A stretch of 64,000 nt of DNA from Thiotrichaceae bacterium. Its GTDB lineage: Bacteria > Pseudomonadota > Gammaproteobacteria > Beggiatoales > Beggiatoaceae. Below the pieces are notes generated by a model. That model searched no databases and was not told the DNA's origin. It saw only the letters and a program-made list of their open reading frames with translations. Positions within the stretch are counted from its first letter, which is position 1; every line of letters begins with the position of its first letter. The stretch lies in assembly GCA_011391085.1 (NCBI GenBank), contig JAABRD010000010.1, positions 1 through 64,000 on the forward strand. Reading direction: 5' to 3'. The position numbers were made by a program, and so were the translations under genes. Positions 14,048 to 58,148 of this stretch are shown here, piece after piece.

Positions 14048-14971
14048 TCAGGAATTGGTTAAACCCGTAATTTCATATAAAACATGTGTTCGACTTTGAC
14101 CACGTAATTGGGTCTTCACAACCCGTCCAAGGTTAACTTTATTTTCAAGATGTTCCATCATGTCTTGAGAAATCAATAAGGTCGTACCAAATTCTTTATT
14201 GACCGATTCAATGCGACTGGCTACATTCACGGTATCACCTAACACGGTCAACTGTCGCTTCGACGGGTGGCCGATCTCTCCGACTATCACTAAGCCATAA
14301 TGTAAGCCTATCCTTATCTTAAATTCATGGGAAAAATCTTTGACTACGGATTTGTTTAACTCTGCCACTTGTGTTTGCATTTGCAAACTGGCTTGTACCG
14401 CTTGTAAGCAATTTTCCAATGGGTCACGTTGTTCAATTCCGAAGATGGCCATCAAGCCATCGCCAATATATTTGTCAATGTACCCTTGATGGGTCAGGAT
14501 GGGTTCACAGACTTCTTTAAAATATCTATTTAGCAAATAGACCACGTCGTAAGGCAGATGTTGTGTTGCAAAACCAGTGAAGTTGGCTATATCGCAAAAC
14601 ATTACCACGAGAGAACGTTCATGGCCTGTCATCACATCTGAACACTTTTCCACTGAGGTGTTCTTGGCTACGGAATCCAAGACTAATTGTTTAATCTTGA
14701 CATCGCCTAAAACTTTGGCCTGACAGGCCAATCGAATGTCCGCCGGCCAGTTTTTTTCTTGCGCAACCTTCTGTTCTGCGGCAGTGCGGGGGGCAAGGTA
14801 AGAACCGCCATCTAAGACACGAACACGGCAGGTGGTACACCGGGCATTGCCACAGCAGGCATGAGAGTGGGGGATACCGTGTGTTAGAGAAGCGTCTAAA
14901 AGGGTGCCTCCGACAGGAAATTCTATCGTTAAGGGAGTTTCGGTGTCATGATGGTAAGTGATGGTGGGCAT
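14048..14971 (-). CDS. 2Fe-2S ferredoxin fused to class III adenylate/guanylate cyclase
   Basis: 307 residues. Residues 1-95 are a plant-type ferredoxin domain with cluster ligands C40, C45, C48 (CGNARCTTC) and C83 (RLACQAKV). Residues about 115-305 are a class III nucleotidyl cyclase: metal-binding Asp127 (FCDIANFTGF), Asp171 in DKYIGDGLMAIFG, and VLGDTVNVASR. Lys167 in the DKYIGDG context favours ATP over GTP. No transmembrane segment, so it is cytoplasmic. The fusion implies that cluster redox state or oxygen controls cAMP synthesis. It follows nuoK on the same strand, which links it to respiratory redox state. Confidence 0.9.
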   Translation of the reverse strand: MPTITYHHDTETPLTIEFPVGGTLLDASLTHGIPHSHACCGNARCTTCRVRVLDGGSYLAPRTAAEQKVAQEKNWPADIRLACQAKVLGDVKIKQLVLDSVAKNTSVEKCSDVMTGHERSLVVMFCDIANFTGFATQHLPYDVVYLLNRYFKEVCEPILTHQGYIDKYIGDGLMAIFGIEQRDPLENCLQAVQASLQMQTQVAELNKSVVKDFSHEFKIRIGLHYGLVIVGEIGHPSKRQLTVLGDTVNVASRIESVNKEFGTTLLISQDMMEHLENKVNLGRVVKTQLRGQSRTHVLYEITGLTNS

Positions 14972-32106: not shown

Positions 32107-32958
32107 TTACCATTGTTTTGACAGTTTAGAAAGTTCCCCCAGGAAAAAATCTACACTCCATTTTGATAACATTTCCTTTTCGGAACTTCTGAGAAATGGT
32201 GAAACATCACGTTTGGCTATTTGCCAGTCAACACTTTGAATTTTCATCGAAAGTTGGTTAATATACCACGCAGGGGTCACTTGAATGGTTTGGTTGGCCC
32301 AGGGTCCCTGTTGATGTAGCGCATTCGCCAAAAAATCGAAATTGGGTAACACTTCCCGGTTGACATACCAAAGGAAGTCATACCAATCTCGTCCTTTCAG
32401 ATAGGTTCTACACAAAAGCGCATGGCTTTTACTGGCAAAGTTACTAGAGAGGTCTTGTATCTCAATAGGAAAATCCACGGGAAAGTCTAAACATTTAACT
32501 TCCGTTTGACAACCTGCTGGTGGATTAATATCGATCTCTAACTTGATGGTGATTTTTTGATTAGGAGAATGTTGAAATGACAATTCCAAAAATTTACCGA
32601 TGGAATTGTCTTTGAGAAACATTTTTTGCACAGTCACCCCCACTTTGCTTTTGTCCTTAATTTCAGGATAAATACCATATTGCTTACAGACCTCTGCAAT
32701 GGCTTTCTGATAAGGTTGCCAGGTAAAATCAGGATTGACCTGTTTTAGCATAAAATCTAAATCTTCTGAAAAACGTGGTAAGTGATAGACGATACGCAGG
32801 CAAGAACCGCCGTGAAAAACGGCTTTGGCAAAGAAATCGGTATGGGACAGGCCCTGCAAAATAATTTCCTGCAAAATCTCTTTCAAAGCGTCTTCCTCTT
32901 CATCAGCGTTTTGCACGGCATATTTTTTAAATCGGTCTTTGATAATGTTAGGTATCAT
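32107..32958 (-). CDS. abiEii: AbiEii/AbiGii-type nucleotidyltransferase toxin
   Basis: 283 residues. The nucleotidyltransferase motif reads FHGGSCLRIVYHLPRFSEDL followed by DF: GGS plus the metal-binding DLD, as in the AbiEii/MenT toxins. Later motifs KLEIDINPP and the LKGRDWYDFLWY segment are also typical. It starts 9 bp after the antitoxin-like gene with AGAGAAGAG upstream. In the type IV system the enzyme transfers nucleotides to a tRNA acceptor end and arrests growth. Confidence 0.88.
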   Translation of the reverse strand: MIPNIIKDRFKKYAVQNADEEEDALKEILQEIILQGLSHTDFFAKAVFHGGSCLRIVYHLPRFSEDLDFMLKQVNPDFTWQPYQKAIAEVCKQYGIYPEIKDKSKVGVTVQKMFLKDNSIGKFLELSFQHSPNQKITIKLEIDINPPAGCQTEVKCLDFPVDFPIEIQDLSSNFASKSHALLCRTYLKGRDWYDFLWYVNREVLPNFDFLANALHQQGPWANQTIQVTPAWYINQLSMKIQSVDWQIAKRDVSPFLRSSEKEMLSKWSVDFFLGELSKLSKQW

Positions 32959-32967
32959 AACTCTTCT

Positions 32968-33639
32968 CTACCGTTTGGAAGACATAGTTGTAGCAAATAA
33001 TTCTCGTTGAATTTCATTCAGGAAAGAGAGAACTCGCCGGGCGCGAAATACGGACCTCACTTGCTGAAAATCCGCCAACGTCAAGGTTCTGAGATTCTCT
33101 TCTTCAATGCGCAAGCCATCCAATAACCAGTCGATGCTGGTCCATTCAATTTTTCTATCATACACATAATCGGCCAGTGCCCTCAAGGGGGTTGCCATCA
33201 AAAAAGGTTGCCCTTGATACTCCTCACGAGTGACACCGCTTAAAAATTCCGCTTCCTTGACAGGTAAATGCACATATTCAAATTCAAAGTCACCCAAGGG
33301 AGTTTCAAAATGCCGAGATCGCCCTTTTGAAATGACACTGAGGACTTGGACCACTCGTTCTGGAATCCAACCATGATATGATAGGGCACTTTCAAAGGAA
33401 ATGTAACTATTTGGCACCATCTGACCTGCTACCACAAATTTGCTAACTTTAATGGTGCGATATTTTGGGGCCACCATGTAGGCACCGTGTTGTAACCGCA
33501 TCAAATATCCTTTGGCCCAGGCCCGATAGACCAGTCTATAATATCTGGTAGGACTCCCATCAGACAGACGGACTAAATCTCTCGCGTGGAAAATTCGTTG
33601 ATGAACTCCAGCGTTTTGTAAAATGTCGATAATTAACAT
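32968..33639 (-). CDS. abiEi: AbiEi-type antitoxin / transcriptional repressor
   Basis: 223 residues: N-terminal winged-helix (residues about 10-60, VRLSDGSPTRYYRLVYRAWA) and a C-terminal AbiEi domain (GQPFLMATPLRALADYVYD). First gene of the bicistronic AbiE operon. Known members repress their own promoter by binding inverted repeats; I could not pick out an operator in the 214 bp between this gene and the divergent channel gene. Confidence 0.88.
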   Translation of the reverse strand: MLIIDILQNAGVHQRIFHARDLVRLSDGSPTRYYRLVYRAWAKGYLMRLQHGAYMVAPKYRTIKVSKFVVAGQMVPNSYISFESALSYHGWIPERVVQVLSVISKGRSRHFETPLGDFEFEYVHLPVKEAEFLSGVTREEYQGQPFLMATPLRALADYVYDRKIEWTSIDWLLDGLRIEEENLRTLTLADFQQVRSVFRARRVLSFLNEIQRELFATTMSSKR

Positions 33640-33853: not shown

Positions 33854-36800
33854 ATGCGACCCAAAATTTTAATATTCATACTCCTCATCACTTCTGTTGC
33901 GGCCTTTTGGGCAAGTAAGCAAAATTACCTTCAAGAAGAAAAAGAACCCATCCATATTGCTTTTGTAGGCCCCATGTCCGGCGATGGGGCGATGGCGGGC
34001 AAATTAATGACCCAGGCAATTCAATTGCACTTAGATTCAGTGAACAATCAAGGCGGCATCAATGGTCAAAAAATCGTCATGGATATTCTTGATGACCGCA
34101 ATAATACTCTCGATGCGAAAAATAAAGCCTTGGATATTGTCGAAAATAATCAGGCCGTGGCCGTGATTGGTCATTGGTACAGTTCAACCTCAATAGCCGC
34201 AGGAAAAATTTATAAGCAATACGGCATTCCTGCCATTACCCCTGGTTCAACCAACATCAATGTCACCAAAGACAATCCTTGGTATTTCAGAAACATTTTC
34301 AATGCCAGTGCGTCGGGTCAATTTTTGGCAAATTATGTCAAAAAAGTGTTGCAACAAAACACGGTGAGTATTATCCATGAGAATGAGGCTTATGGTGCCT
34401 ATCTCGCCCAAGTGTTTGCGGAATCTTCCCTCAAACAGGGAATGGAAGTCAAATATCAGTGGGCATTTGATAACCAGGATAAGCACTTGGACCGCACCTT
34501 TGAACGGATTATCCAACAACTCAAAACCAAAGACGATGCGGGGGTGGTATTTTTGGCCGTACAAGCCAGTGAAGGCATTAAACTCGTCAAGTTAATTAAA
34601 GAAATTGGGATTCCCAACACTCTCATCAGCGAAACCAGTTTTTCGGAACAAACCTTCATGCACGGTTTTGATGAATTTCCTAGAGAACTGGCCAACCCTG
34701 GCTATTACACCAACGACATTTATGTTGCCACGCCTCTCATCTTTGACACGGCCAATGAACGGGCCCAACAATTTCGCGAAGACTATCAAACCAAATATCA
34801 AGAAGAACCTGATTGGTCAGCCGCGTATGCTTATGACACCGCCATGTTGGTGGTGGAAGCGATTCGCAGAACCGGTGTGCAAGGGGCGCCAACTTCTATT
34901 CAAGAAGATCGGAAACAGATTCGAGATTATCTGGCCTCTCTTTCCAGTTTAGATGATGCTATCCTGGGGGTGACAGGATTGAACTATTTTGATGCGCACC
35001 GAGATGCGCAGAAGCCCATTTCCATTGGCGTGTATAAACACAAAAATATCATCTCCGCCTTGACTCAACTCCAGTTCATTAATAACACCAGTGCCGTTTT
35101 AGACCTGGAAACGGGGTTACAAAAAGAACAAGTGTTGGTCATTGATGACAAATATATGTATAAGACCAATGTCGTCTATGCCGGCGTGAAAGTCAATGAA
35201 ATCACCGAACTGGATTTGGATAAACTCACCTACTTGTTAGATTTTGACCTCTGGTTTCGTTTCCAGGGCGCCATCAATGAAGCTGAAGACATTGAATTTC
35301 TCAATGCCGCAGAACCAATTGTCTTGGGAAAACCGGTTATCAATGAAGTCCTGGATAAAATTACCTATCGAGTGTATAACATCAAGGGACGTTTTAAGGC
35401 AGATTTTTTGCCCAATTATCACTCCTTCAAGCAACATATTTTAGGCATCAGTTTTCGGCACCGGCACCTGAATCGCAACAATCTGATTTATGTCACCGAT
35501 TTTTTGGGCATGGGCTTGACCAAAGGTCGTTCTTTCGTTGAAAAACTCAAAAATAACAAAGTGCTGAGTCCTGTTTATAACTGGAATATCAGTCAAGCCT
35601 GGGTGTTTCAAGACATCGAAAAAGAAGACTCCCTGGGCAACCCCAAATATCTCAACGTCCATGACGGCATCGTTGAATATTCGCGATTCAATACCGGCAT
35701 TCTCATCAAGAAAGACGAGATCTCGCTTTTGAATATGGTATCAGTGTCGCTGATGGAAAAGTTACTGATATTAAGCGGGGCTATCATTATCTTCTTGACC
35801 ATTCTAATTAGGCGCCAACAATTTCACCATGCCACGCGCTTCCTCTGGATGTTGCGCGTCCTGTTTGCCTTCCTGATGCTATTTGCGACGGAGGCGGTTC
35901 TGATTGAATGGTTGGCAGAAAAAACCAGTACCGGGGTTCTGGAATCTCTCATCAAACTGTTTAACGCCCTTTGGTGGTTTATCCTCGCCACCCTGATTAA
36001 TCGTGCCGCAGAAAGTTTTATCTGGACCCCGTTGGAAGAGAAAACCGGGCGCCAAATTCCTAATATTGTGCGACGCTTTGCCTCCTTTTTAGTCTATCTA
36101 CTGGCCTTCTTTGCCATTGTGGCCTTTGTCTATGAACGCGCCCTCACCAGCCTCTTGGCGACCTCTGGTGTGATTGCCATGATTATCGGTTTAGCCATTC
36201 AAATCAATATCTCCAACATCTTTTCAGGTATCGCGCTTAACATTGAACGACCTTTGCGAGTGGGCGACTGGGTGAAAATTGGTGACTTCGATGAAGGTCA
36301 AGTACTGGATATTAACTGGCGGGCGACGCGACTGGGGCTCCGGGATGGTTCCACTTTTACCATCCCCAACAGCGTCGCCTCTGAAAAAGTCATTCGCAAT
36401 TACTCTTACCCAGGTGAACATTACTGGCTGTGGCCAACGGTTTATATCGATTCCACTCATCCGCCGGAACGAGTTGAAAAGATTCTCCTCGATGCCGTGT
36501 TATCGGTTAAAGGCATTCTCAAAGACCCCAAACCGATGGTTATCTTTGAAGGCATCAACGAATGGGCCGCCGCCTATTGGGTCGTCGTCTGTGCCGATGG
36601 CTATGAAAACAAACCATATATTTTGCAAGAAGTCTGGAAACGAATTTGGATTCACCTCAACCGCGCTGGTATCAATCCGGCGGTTCAACAGCATAAGATA
36701 CACATGTTTCGTGGTGTCAAAGAACGCGGAGAGGAGGCCACGAACCGCTTGACGTTGTTGCAAGAGATTGACATTTTCCAACCGTTTTCCGAAAAAGCTA

Positions 36801-37261
36801 AATTATACCTGAGTAAACGGATGCGGGCGCATCGTTTTTCCAGCGGTCAAACCGTCGTTCGTCAAGGTGAAGCAGGGGATTCTTTATTCATTATTGTAGA
36901 AGGAACGGTGAGTGTACAAATTCGCAAAGAAGATGCCCAAATCATTGAAGTGGCCCGGTTAGGTGCAGGTAACTTCTTTGGAGAGATGGCACTTCTCACC
37001 GGTCAAGACCGAACCGCGACCATTGTAACCTTAAACGAAACTTACCTATTTGAAATTATCAAGGAAGATATTTTACCGCTTCTGCAAAGACAACCCACGG
37101 TCTCTAAATTGATTAGTCAAGTGTTGACGGAACGACAATTGCTAACCAAAGCCAAAATGGGCAATCTCTCGCAAGACCCACAGACGGAAAGAGATGTCAT
37201 TTATAAGAGGATGTTGCGCGGGATTAGGGACTTCTTTGGATTGGGGAATGCGGATGGGTAG
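33854..37261 (+). CDS. Periplasmic binding domain - Cys-loop-receptor-like domain - MscS channel - cNMP-binding fusion
   Basis: 1135 residues. A signal anchor (about 1-20) is followed by a type I periplasmic binding protein of the Leu/Ile/Val class (about 33-400: IHIAFVGPMSGDGAMAG, GGINGQKI, YGIPAITPGST). Residues about 430-630 are beta-rich and resemble the pentameric ligand-gated channel extracellular domain (YAGVKVNEITELDLDKLTYL, IEFLNAAEP, GRFKADFLPNYHSFKQHILG). Five helices follow (about 637-653, 664-686, 697-720, 746-764, 772-800), the last being the MscS pore (GLAIQINISNIFSG), then the MscS beta domain (LRVGDWVKIGDFDEG) and TIPNS. Residues about 972-1095 are a cyclic-nucleotide-binding domain with FGEMALL (Glu1044) and RTAT (Arg1053). 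Topology fits: ligand domains outside, cNMP domain inside. Likely a dual ligand-gated ion channel. Confidence 0.85.
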   Translation: MRPKILIFILLITSVAAFWASKQNYLQEEKEPIHIAFVGPMSGDGAMAGKLMTQAIQLHLDSVNNQGGINGQKIVMDILDDRNNTLDAKNKALDIVENNQAVAVIGHWYSSTSIAAGKIYKQYGIPAITPGSTNINVTKDNPWYFRNIFNASASGQFLANYVKKVLQQNTVSIIHENEAYGAYLAQVFAESSLKQGMEVKYQWAFDNQDKHLDRTFERIIQQLKTKDDAGVVFLAVQASEGIKLVKLIKEIGIPNTLISETSFSEQTFMHGFDEFPRELANPGYYTNDIYVATPLIFDTANERAQQFREDYQTKYQEEPDWSAAYAYDTAMLVVEAIRRTGVQGAPTSIQEDRKQIRDYLASLSSLDDAILGVTGLNYFDAHRDAQKPISIGVYKHKNIISALTQLQFINNTSAVLDLETGLQKEQVLVIDDKYMYKTNVVYAGVKVNEITELDLDKLTYLLDFDLWFRFQGAINEAEDIEFLNAAEPIVLGKPVINEVLDKITYRVYNIKGRFKADFLPNYHSFKQHILGISFRHRHLNRNNLIYVTDFLGMGLTKGRSFVEKLKNNKVLSPVYNWNISQAWVFQDIEKEDSLGNPKYLNVHDGIVEYSRFNTGILIKKDEISLLNMVSVSLMEKLLILSGAIIIFLTILIRRQQFHHATRFLWMLRVLFAFLMLFATEAVLIEWLAEKTSTGVLESLIKLFNALWWFILATLINRAAESFIWTPLEEKTGRQIPNIVRRFASFLVYLLAFFAIVAFVYERALTSLLATSGVIAMIIGLAIQINISNIFSGIALNIERPLRVGDWVKIGDFDEGQVLDINWRATRLGLRDGSTFTIPNSVASEKVIRNYSYPGEHYWLWPTVYIDSTHPPERVEKILLDAVLSVKGILKDPKPMVIFEGINEWAAAYWVVVCADGYENKPYILQEVWKRIWIHLNRAGINPAVQQHKIHMFRGVKERGEEATNRLTLLQEIDIFQPFSEKAKLYLSKRMRAHRFSSGQTVVRQGEAGDSLFIIVEGTVSVQIRKEDAQIIEVARLGAGNFFGEMALLTGQDRTATIVTLNETYLFEIIKEDILPLLQRQPTVSKLISQVLTERQLLTKAKMGNLSQDPQTERDVIYKRMLRGIRDFFGLGNADG

Positions 37262-54572: not shown

Positions 54573-57500
54573 CTACGCCTTCCCCTCCTGGCATTCTTTC
54601 TGGCGTTCTTCTCGGTTCGTTATTTTCATTTTTTCTTGAAGTTCCAAGTTATGCCTTCTCAACTCTCGATTCTTCGTTTGCAGTTGTTTTTGGAAATATC
54701 TTAGATTCAACTGCGTTCTAACTCGCACTAACACTTCTTCATGTTGAAATGGTTTGGTGATATAGTCCACTGCACCTGTTTCAAAGCCTTTGAGTTTATC
54801 TGTGGTACTTGTCAAGGCGGTGATAAAGATAATCGGAATGTCCCGTGTTTCAGATTGTTCTTTCAGTTGTCTGCAAGTTTCAAAACCGTCCATACCAGGC
54901 ATCATGACATCTAATAAAATGACATCCGGTTTTTCATGCAACAGCACATGTAAAGCAGTTTCACCACTGTCAGCGACGAGGACTTCAAAGCCCTGGTGGC
55001 TTAACATGTCAAATAACACGGCCACATTTTCTACAATGTCATCCACAATCAGAATCGTTCCGCCGGTGGGGGGAACGGCGTCTAATGTTTCACGACAACG
55101 TTCCAAATAAACTTGGGCAGCCCAGTCCTGTTCATGGCATTGTAAAACATTTTCAAACAATGGATAGGCATCTTGCACTTCTCCTGAATGATAGAGGACA
55201 AAGCCTGTTTCAAAATCGGCAAGAGTGTCATCTTTGAGGGTGACACTGTCTTGGGGGTCTGCATCATAGACTTCATAAATGGTGACGGGTTGTGATTTGC
55301 CTTTCACTTTGGCCGCGTCAATGACACGAATATGATACCGTGAGGGGTCGACTAATTTCAAATAAGTTTGTTCTGTGATGAGAAGAGGAGTATGATAAAT
55401 TTTGGTTAAGTCTTGAACTCGTGAGGCAACGTTCACGGCATCTGAAATGACGGTGCCATCCATGCGATTTTGTCCTCCCACAGTGCCTAACATCAAGGGA
55501 CCCGTATTTAAACCAATGCCTATTTTAATTTGTGGTAACCCGGCCCGTTGGAGGAGGTCGTTGTATTTGGTCAACGTTTTCAACATGCCAATGGCACCAC
55601 GAACGGCGTCATCGGCGCGGAGGGGAAACAAAGCCATAATGGCATCGCCAATGTATTTGTCAATCACGCCGCCTTCTTCAAGAATGATAGGTTCCATTTG
55701 TCCCATATAATTGTTAACAAAGTCAAATACATCCTGTGGAGACATTTGTTCCGATAAGGTGGTAAATCCGCGAATATCGGCAAACAAGATCGTCATTTCT
55801 TTAAAGACCTGGTCTCCCAGTTGTACGTCTAGGACACTGTTTTTATCTAACAAACTTAAAAATTGTCGTGGGACAAAACGTTCATACGCTTTGTTGAGTT
55901 GAAATAATTTTTCTTTTTGGGCCTCTGCCAGTTCTTTGGTGAGATGTTCTAACTGCGCATTTTTGGCCTGTAACTCAATATTTTGTTGTTGGATTTGGGC
56001 TTCGGCCCGTTTACGTTCGGCCAGTTCTTGCTGACTGAGTGTATAGAGACGGGCATTTTCAATGGCATTGGCAGCGGAAGAGGCTATCGCTTCCAACAGA
56101 TTTAAGTCATCTGGAGAAAAGCAATTGGCTTTGGGGTCTGCTAGGTTGAGAACGCCAACCACTTTGCCGCTGGTGAGTAAAGGAACACAGAGAATGGAAC
56201 GCAATTCGACGCCCGTTTTCTTGTCCACGCCTTTAAAGTGTCGTTCATCTTGACGAGTATCAGACACCAACACCGGTTCTCCCGTTTGGGCGGCCCCGCC
56301 TGTGAATCCTTGTCCGATGGGCAATCTCCAACCGATCACGACGTCGCTACTGTCGCCTTTCGCATGACGGCAAACTAATTCGTTGGTATCCGTGGCCAAC
56401 CAGAGTGAGGTGATGGCAATGCCTAACAGATGTTGTACTTCTTCTAAAATGACTTCTAATACTTCATTCAATTCTATAGTCGAACTAAAAATTCCTGCCA
56501 CTCGATTGATGAGGGCTAGTTCTTTAGTTTTTTGTTGGAATGCTTCCTCTACTCGTTTCCGTTCGGTGACATCTTGATTGAAACCTTTTAGGCGAATAGG
56601 CGTTCCCGATTCGTTAAATTCCAGTTCTGCCTGGGAACGCAAGGTGCGAACTTGACCGTCTGGCCAAGTCACACGAAATTCCACTTCGGCAGTTTGCCCT
56701 TCGATGATACACGTTTCTAACAACGTGTCTATCACATGCTGATCGTCTGGATGAATGGGGGCGATAAAGGCTTCGTATGTGGGTGTATAGTTCGCCGGGG
56801 CCAATCCGCAATTGCGACAATCTTGTTCCGAACGATAGACGGTACCTGTTTTAATGTCCCAAACCCAACTTCCAAGGGATGCCATGCGTTGGGCATCGGC
56901 CAAGATTTTTTCCTTTTCGCGTAAGGCCACTTCCATGTTTTTTTGTTCCATAATGTCAATGAGAATGCCATTGAAGACAATTTCTTGGTCATTGACTTGT
57001 ACGGGTCTGGAAATGCTACGCCACCATTTGATTTGTCCAGACGGGAGGACGAAGCGTCCTTCAAACGAAAAATCTTGTTTCGTTTCGCAAGCCTGTTTAA
57101 AAGAGTCGTGCCATTTGGGCAAATCTTCTGGATGTAACGGTAGCAATTTGGGATTTTGCAGCCAGTCTTCAGCCTTGACTCCATAGAGGTCTTCACAACG
57201 CGGACTGACATAATAAAATCCACGTTCTCCAGTTTGACGTTCATACCATTGATAAATGACGCCAGGTACATTGGCAGCGAGGTCATGAAATTTGTCTTCC
57301 AGGGACTTCAACTGTTGTTTATCATGTTGGTGTCTGGCAACTTCTGCGAGTTGACGTTCGGAGATGTCTTGTAATACACAAATGGCATAAACGATATGGT
57401 CACCGGCAAAGATCGGGGTGCCACAAATCTCTAAAGGAATAATCTTTTCTCCTTGATGCACTTCTATGTCATCCACTCTAGCCGTTTCGCCTCTTAATGC

Positions 57501-58148
57501 ACGTTGAACAGGTAATTTTGAAGCTGGATAGATTTCCGTGGTGCCAGCTTGATACAGTTGATAAACGTCAGGTAGTTGTGTTGCGGAAAGTTTCGAACTC
57601 TGATCTTTGCCAAAAATGTGAGTCGTGATTTGGTTTTGGTAAAACAGTTGATCTTGCGCATCTATGATGAGAATACCCACGGGCATCACTTCGAGGAATT
57701 GTCTTAACCGCTGTTCTCCGTCTCGAACCGCTTTAAACGCCTCGGCTTTGAGTTGTTGTATATGCAGATAGGTGTTAATCCGCGCTAATAGTTCATGGGT
57801 AGAAATCGGTCGGATTAGATAATCGTTGGCGCCCACTTCCAATCCTTTCACCACGCCTGTGTGATGAGGATTAGCGGTTAACAGGATGATGGGTAATTCA
57901 TCGGCCCGCCATTTTTCGCGAAGTTTTTGGGTGACTTCATAGCCATTCATTTGAGGCATCATCACATCTAATAAGATCAGATCCGGTTGCAAACCGTTAG
58001 AGATGAGAGTTAATGCCTCTATACCAGAGGCAGCTTGAATGACCGTATAATGTCGTTGCGATAACTGGTCGGCAAGCACCTGTCGGGTGATGAGTTCATC
58101 ATCCACAATCAAGATGGTAAGTGCAGTTTGAGGGGTGTTGCTAACCAT
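54573..58148 (-). CDS. REC-PAS-PAS-PAS-GAF-adenylate cyclase-REC signalling protein
   Basis: 1191 residues, soluble. Domains in order: receiver (about 10-128; phospho-Asp in LILLDVMMPQMNG, Lys replaced by Arg in DYLIRP), PAS about 145-275, PAS about 290-405, PAS about 415-530, GAF about 560-705, coiled coil about 715-775, class III cyclase about 785-965 (FADIRGFTTLSEQ and DKYIGDAIMALFP, both metal aspartates present) and a second receiver about 1035-1155 (ILLDVMMPGMDG, DYITKP intact). The C-terminal tail is charged coiled coil. Output is cAMP or cGMP; input is a phosphorelay plus PAS/GAF ligands. The histidine kinase at 25942 lacks a receiver, but pairing is speculative. Confidence 0.92.
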   Translation of the reverse strand: MVSNTPQTALTILIVDDELITRQVLADQLSQRHYTVIQAASGIEALTLISNGLQPDLILLDVMMPQMNGYEVTQKLREKWRADELPIILLTANPHHTGVVKGLEVGANDYLIRPISTHELLARINTYLHIQQLKAEAFKAVRDGEQRLRQFLEVMPVGILIIDAQDQLFYQNQITTHIFGKDQSSKLSATQLPDVYQLYQAGTTEIYPASKLPVQRALRGETARVDDIEVHQGEKIIPLEICGTPIFAGDHIVYAICVLQDISERQLAEVARHQHDKQQLKSLEDKFHDLAANVPGVIYQWYERQTGERGFYYVSPRCEDLYGVKAEDWLQNPKLLPLHPEDLPKWHDSFKQACETKQDFSFEGRFVLPSGQIKWWRSISRPVQVNDQEIVFNGILIDIMEQKNMEVALREKEKILADAQRMASLGSWVWDIKTGTVYRSEQDCRNCGLAPANYTPTYEAFIAPIHPDDQHVIDTLLETCIIEGQTAEVEFRVTWPDGQVRTLRSQAELEFNESGTPIRLKGFNQDVTERKRVEEAFQQKTKELALINRVAGIFSSTIELNEVLEVILEEVQHLLGIAITSLWLATDTNELVCRHAKGDSSDVVIGWRLPIGQGFTGGAAQTGEPVLVSDTRQDERHFKGVDKKTGVELRSILCVPLLTSGKVVGVLNLADPKANCFSPDDLNLLEAIASSAANAIENARLYTLSQQELAERKRAEAQIQQQNIELQAKNAQLEHLTKELAEAQKEKLFQLNKAYERFVPRQFLSLLDKNSVLDVQLGDQVFKEMTILFADIRGFTTLSEQMSPQDVFDFVNNYMGQMEPIILEEGGVIDKYIGDAIMALFPLRADDAVRGAIGMLKTLTKYNDLLQRAGLPQIKIGIGLNTGPLMLGTVGGQNRMDGTVISDAVNVASRVQDLTKIYHTPLLITEQTYLKLVDPSRYHIRVIDAAKVKGKSQPVTIYEVYDADPQDSVTLKDDTLADFETGFVLYHSGEVQDAYPLFENVLQCHEQDWAAQVYLERCRETLDAVPPTGGTILIVDDIVENVAVLFDMLSHQGFEVLVADSGETALHVLLHEKPDVILLDVMMPGMDGFETCRQLKEQSETRDIPIIFITALTSTTDKLKGFETGAVDYITKPFQHEEVLVRVRTQLNLRYFQKQLQTKNRELRRHNLELQEKMKITNREERQKECQEGKA

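Follow-up and report, generated by a model that had tools for sequence, protein, structure and literature searches.

Pentameric ligand-gated ion channels (pLGICs) consist of five subunits, and channels of the unrelated MscS superfamily normally consist of seven. To our knowledge, the ectodomain of nicotinic/GABA-type receptors has always been described as part of a pentamer, seated on a four-helix pore of its own. PBP-pLGICs, in which this kind of receptor is fused to a periplasmic binding protein (PBP), were described by Tasneem et al. in 2005 (PMC549065). On the MscS side, the bCNG channels carry a C-terminal cyclic-nucleotide-binding (cNMP) domain (Caldwell 2010 and Malcolm 2012, as cited in PMC4560390), and MscK is an MscS-type heptamer under the control of a periplasmic ring and of an external ligand, K+ (PMC9653487). 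PBP-pLGIC fusions and MscS-cNMP (bCNG) channels have been known as separate systems, as has each module of the protein described below; the surprise lies in the joining of two superfamilies with different symmetries and in the wide spread of the product. The combination of the two was not found in the open-access literature searched, subscription papers and preprints being largely outside the scope of that search.

The 64-kb window (the whole stretch of DNA analyzed here) contains, at positions 33854-37261 of the forward strand, one continuous ATG frame of 1,135 codons with no internal stop. With somewhat better than even confidence, we read its product, P0001, as a natural chimeric channel subunit that combines a periplasmic PBP-pLGIC ectodomain block with an MscS pore and a cytoplasmic cNMP domain and would be gated from both sides. 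The chain of 1135 aa starts with a hydrophobic segment, either a signal peptide or an N-terminal anchor (residues 3-21, 33860-33916; seen in hydropathy and as a model helix at residues 3-24), followed by a type I PBP (residues 32-369, 33947-34960; Peripla_BP_6, E = 1e-41), a middle domain (residues 402-632, 35057-35749), five transmembrane (TM) helices (residues 631-794, 35744-36235), the MscS beta and alpha/beta cytoplasmic domains (residues 786-941, 36209-36676), and the cNMP domain (residues 993-1079, 36830-37090; cNMP_binding, PF00027, E = 2.2e-21), all encoded on the forward strand. The MscS part matches MS_channel_2nd (PF00924, residues 786-851, E = 3.8e-17) and MS_channel_3rd (PF21082, residues 869-941, E = 4.2e-5, 24.3 bits with a cut-off of 21). 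All four Pfam matches exceed the curated cut-offs; NCBIfam yields only partial matches to P0001, below threshold. The PBP is nearest to Leu/Ile/Val-type binding proteins in both sequence and fold (LivJ, PDB 4gnr, TM-score 0.90), and the phosphate-binding cassette of the cNMP domain, NFFGEMALLTGQDRTAT (residues 1040-1056, 36971-37021, forward strand), is intact, with Glu1044 and Arg1053 present.

The full-length AlphaFold model (mean pLDDT 80.7, pTM 0.56) displays the binding protein, a beta domain, and five long helices (residues 631-653, 655-690, 693-731, 737-759, and 764-794, of which the last is TM3, the pore helix of MscS), followed by both of the cytoplasmic MscS domains, beta and alpha/beta, and by the cNMP domain; the pore region around residues 771-800 is poorly determined (pLDDT 36-58). 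Hydropathy profiles of relatives belonging to other phyla likewise indicate five helices, and searches of PDB sequences match the pore to MscS and YnaI. P0001 has the pore helix TM3, the beta domain, and the C-terminal alpha/beta domain of the MscS superfamily. Because the number of TM helices is odd, the PBP and receptor domains are expected in the periplasm, with the cNMP domain and the vestibule of MscS on the cytoplasmic side. The first-pass annotation, made from the sequence letters, had proposed the uninterrupted frame, a Leu/Ile/Val-type binding domain, five hydrophobic helices ending in an MscS pore, and a cNMP domain with the Glu and Arg of its phosphate cassette, and all of these proposals were borne out. 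The two outcomes that it had named as refuting, a predicted middle domain lacking the receptor fold and pore helices unlike those of MscS, did not occur. Its suggestion that the middle domain resembles those of pentameric receptors was also borne out, for which the evidence is as follows.

Residues 402-632 have no match in Pfam, and a profile of MscS-type ectodomains finds no PDB sequence up to an E value of 10; both results would suit a beta-sandwich that looks like a receptor ectodomain but is unrelated to it. In view of the missing direct PDB match, homology was established via intermediates, profile-profile comparison, and fold. A profile built from 64 MscS-type middle domains only (A3) aligns in hhalign with the PBP-pLGIC ectodomains, the type found in P0002 (see below), over 221 columns (probability 100, E = 3.7e-67) and with simple bacterial pLGICs over 166 columns (probability 98.9, E = 3.9e-17). 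The same profile retrieves stand-alone pLGICs of 372-375 aa in whole-genome searches with E values of about 1e-12, and a profile of four PBP-pLGICs matches the GABA-A receptor beta3 (1.6e-15). The AlphaFold model of residues 402-632 (64 sequences; pLDDT 88.6, pTM 0.84) has the receptor ectodomain fold. Its best Foldseek matches in PDB, out of 1096 at E values of 0.001 or below, are acetylcholine-binding proteins, the nicotinic receptor ectodomain, and GluCl (E = 3e-8, probability 1.00), and its TM-scores against solved ectodomains are only 0.50-0.58. Faced with the two profile alignments and the Foldseek result, the unrelated beta-sandwich becomes very improbable, and we reject it on present evidence. 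Four lines of evidence, namely, a homologue in the same genome, the hhalign alignments, the model, and the pattern of coupling residues, identify the middle domain of P0001 as a homologue of the pLGIC ectodomain. P0001 has a 10-strand immunoglobulin-like ectodomain homologous, by profile comparison and model, to the pLGIC superfamily, lacks the four-helix M2-lined pLGIC membrane domain, and contains an MscS core in its place. The tie of the MscS-type ectodomains to solved receptors runs via intermediates and the model, which we count against the chimeric-channel reading, together with the TM-scores of only 0.50-0.58 and the low confidence of the modelled pore region.

The homologue from the same genome, P0002 (contig C44, 795 aa), shares the PBP and the middle domain with P0001 at 36% identity but ends in four pLGIC-type TM helices. 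Since its C-terminal 355 residues match the GABA-A receptor alpha5 (7.3e-8) and GLIC (about 2e-5), P0002 belongs to the class of PBP-pLGICs that Tasneem et al. (PMC549065) reported. The Pfam profile Neur_chan_LBD, run over this genome, finds only a simple 353-aa pLGIC, below the cut-off; the latter, also on contig C44 (L096:1129-2190, forward strand, in G000:C44), has the Pro-loop FPFDRQ and is encoded just 3' of an ABC transporter permease-like gene. Contig C33 encodes two tandem paralogues that share the PBP, middle domain, and MscS core with P0001 at 56-57% identity, P0003 with a cNMP domain and L003 (1012 aa) without it. On another contig, L005:1501-1761 (G000:C61:11872-12132, reverse strand) contains an orphan fragment that is almost identical in sequence to the tail at the C terminus of P0003. 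The genome is a draft in 140 contigs, a circumstance in which an assembly or gene-calling artefact might have produced the PBP-ectodomain-MscS fusion. However, the tandem paralogues in the same genome share this architecture, and it recurs in a complete chromosome of Desulfonema magnum (L019) and in many independent assemblies, so that chance or mis-assembly as its source has next to no credibility and is rejected.

The proline of the Y/FPxD motif has been described as absolutely conserved in Pro-loop receptors (PMC4795631), and a pairing of the acidic residue of this loop with a basic residue where the ectodomain ends has been reported (PMC549065). Among non-identical relatives of the pLGIC type, both P and D are present in 25 of 25, and the pre-M1 Arg is found in all 14 rows that reach that position. 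The same columns in non-identical MscS-type relatives contain P in 14/110 and D in 5/110 and show a new consensus, Q-H-x-x-G; the pre-M1 position is mainly K, E, or P. In P0001, the degenerate Pro-loop (beta6-beta7 loop) reads HSFKQHILGI (residues 523-532, 35420-35449, forward strand), with HSFK at residues 523-526 in place of Y/F-P-x-D, and the alignment puts Lys620 (35711-35713, forward strand) at the pre-M1 arginine position. The first-pass annotation had assigned the loop before "F.Q..L.I" to the place of the receptor loop, correctly, as pLGIC-type relatives read Y-P-x-D-x-Q-x-L-x-I in these columns. In contrast, the beta2 W, loop-F D, and beta10 S, which lie inside the sandwich, are fixed in both types. 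The loss of the coupling residues alongside fixed sandwich residues argues that selection holds the ectodomain while its old contact with the membrane domain is gone. The junction to the MscS part lies at the end of beta10. According to Jaiteh et al. (PMC4795631), relatives without the Pro-loop motif would escape detection, and its absence explains the blind spot for these chimeras.

A scan of one genome per species revealed 249 stretches encoding relatives of the middle domain, and 77 loci were read. These come from Thiotrichales (Thiomargarita, Thioploca, Parabeggiatoa, and Halobeggiatoa), Oceanospirillaceae, Rhodospirillales and Magnetospirillum, Magnetococcales, Desulfobacterota (including the D. 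magnum chromosome), Myxococcota, Leptospiraceae, Calditrichota, Electryoneota, Chloroflexota, SAR324, and Cyanobacteriota. The PBP-ectodomain-MscS architecture is present in at least seven phyla, and no relatives were detected in viral contigs. In the family to which the window belongs, the middle domain is found in 31 of 43 genomes, and a single genome can have as many as 16 matches. The MscS core is present in 131 of the 164 fetched frames with the domain and the pLGIC membrane domain in 24; cNMP was detected in 69 of the 131 MscS-type frames, a count to be read with the fact that some of these end early at the 3' end.

In the ectodomain tree, a single branch (support 98) has every MscS-type row on the same side of it. 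After removal of the coupling-loop columns and the long rows, the MscS/pLGIC split has a support of 99 and requires one change; when these columns are dropped and the very long branch of L096 is kept, two changes are required. The tree is unrooted, with no root inferred. As the simple pLGICs fall opposite the MscS-type rows, the simplest reading that would fit the trees is a single membrane-domain swap with an origin in a PBP-pLGIC. L020, which keeps YPID, and L054, which keeps FPFN, may be near-ancestral or convergent. Among other domain combinations, a PBP-pLGIC encoded at L072:4789-8352 (forward strand), which exceeds the Pfam Neur_chan_memb cut-off (1.4e-7), has a type II binding protein (SBP_bac_1) past its last TM helix and thus sensors at both chain ends. 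In Desulfamplus (L030:4373-6304 and L037:7723-9720, with equivalents in L023, L043, and L051), a chimera without cNMP is followed by a gene that combines cNMP with a Na+/sulfate-citrate symporter.

In 37 full-length relatives, TM3 hardly varies, Glu1044 and Arg1053 are each kept in 36 of the 37, and most residues of the PBP pocket region are conserved, a pattern to be expected if all parts work. These data bear on two other readings of P0001. In one, the protein would be a non- or weakly conducting receptor, in which the PBP-ectodomain block serves various outputs as a general sensor module and the MscS part holds the cytoplasmic domain as a scaffold would. The protein encoded at L066:4717-8088 (forward strand) indeed places the PBP, the same ectodomain, and one TM helix on a P-loop NTPase, a non-channel output, and its ectodomain groups among the MscS-type ones; but this is 1 of 164 frames, and a nearly invariant TM3 would be needless for a mere scaffold, which makes this reading improbable. 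We give distinctly more weight, still well short of even, to an osmotic or mechanosensitive release channel, in which the PBP and receptor ring would stiffen or position the channel and a ligand would only modulate the tension threshold. The fully conserved TM3 and beta domain of MscS, the lost pLGIC coupling residues, and the periplasmic gating ring and external K+ dependence of the heptameric relative MscK (PMC9653487) are all in line with it. Nevertheless, a PBP clamshell with a receptor ectodomain is elaborate for a spacer, the pocket region of the PBP is conserved, and as many as 16 copies per genome suggest diversified ligands rather than one osmotic valve. Within the pocket, the carboxylate Ser/Thr region is kept. 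Position 151, which would correspond to the amine-binding Asp of LIVBP, is Ala in P0001 and Asp in 20 of the 37 relatives. Because Ala151 replaces the Asp of most relatives, the ligand of P0001 may not be an alpha-amino acid.

Two chimera genes are arranged head to tail on the same strand in 12 fetched loci (L011, L014, L015, L017, L018, L026, L029, L038, L041, L047, L049, and L069) and on contig C33 of the same genome (G000:C33:94199-100721; L003 and L002), in a fixed order, with the first gene lacking cNMP and the second carrying it. The exception, L055, has two copies, both without cNMP. First-position genes from many Thiotrichaceae form a clade of their own (support 95). This pairing of cNMP-less and cNMP-bearing genes suggests the alpha and beta subunits of two-subunit heteromeric channels. 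The window gene itself is unpaired and lies between an opposite-strand AbiE-type pair and a CinA gene; the former, an AbiEi/AbiEii-type toxin-antitoxin pair (32107-33639, reverse strand), is directly upstream. Tandem pairs aside, any given family of neighboring genes is shared by at most 6 of the 77 loci. Two cyclases had been pointed out in the window, and both are there, as class III enzymes (14048-14971 and 54573-58148), the former on the reverse strand and fused to a 2Fe-2S ferredoxin-like domain; since the genome encodes 21 class III cyclases, including these two, they are no sign of a specific linkage to the channel gene.

Under the preferred reading of P0001 as a chimeric channel subunit, the ectodomain block of a bacterial PBP-pLGIC (binding lobe plus beta-sandwich) would have been attached, where beta10 ends, to an MscS-superfamily pore of five helices with a cNMP domain on its cytoplasmic end. 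In the periplasm, a small organic ligand, perhaps amino-acid-like, would bind and close the clamshell; the pLGIC-type domains would then rearrange as a ring and signal to TM1 through the remodelled loop, whereupon TM1 and the MscS paddles would move and the ion-conducting pore would either open or close. A cyclic nucleotide could act on the same gate from the cytoplasm. The symmetries of a pentameric ectodomain and a heptameric pore do not match, and this too weighs against the chimeric-channel reading. We see an evenly balanced case for a separate class of ligand-gated channels, distributed over many bacterial phyla, in which the pLGIC ectodomain would form a seven-fold or heteromeric two-gene ring over the MscS pore and gating would be by a periplasmic ligand, a cytoplasmic cyclic nucleotide, and perhaps tension.

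Judging from these sequences, many bacteria appear to carry hybrid channels, with a nerve-receptor-type ectodomain on a pressure-sensitive-type pore and a second sensor, for cyclic nucleotides, inside. Evolution appears to have put a receptor ectodomain on an unrelated pore of another symmetry and to have kept, multiplied, and spread the result across phyla. As the loop and the arginine that touch the original pore have decayed, these proteins represent a natural experiment on ectodomain-pore coupling; they also raise the question of whether rings with a subunit number other than five can be built from the receptor-ectodomain fold, and they supply candidate ligand-gated MscS channels.

Like the bCNG channels, P0001 has an MscS core followed by a C-terminal cNMP domain with an intact phosphate cassette; unlike them, it has about 630 periplasmic residues ahead of the pore. 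We know of no bCNG channel with a PBP or a pLGIC ectodomain. MscK resembles P0001 in joining an MscS core to a large periplasmic region, which in MscK acts as a gating ring with dual control by tension and K+, but the resolved ring of MscK is helical, and the protein has 11 TM helices and no PBP, receptor, or cNMP domain. DeCLIC and other N-terminally extended pLGICs (PMC9897478, PMC12664993) likewise place an accessory periplasmic domain before a pLGIC-type ectodomain; in DeCLIC, unlike P0001, jelly-roll lobes are combined with a normal pLGIC pore. The PBP-pLGICs share with P0001 the N-terminal type I PBP followed by a homologous ectodomain, but they connect the core ectodomain to a four-TM pLGIC pore, whereas P0001 has an MscS pore and has lost the Pro-loop motif.
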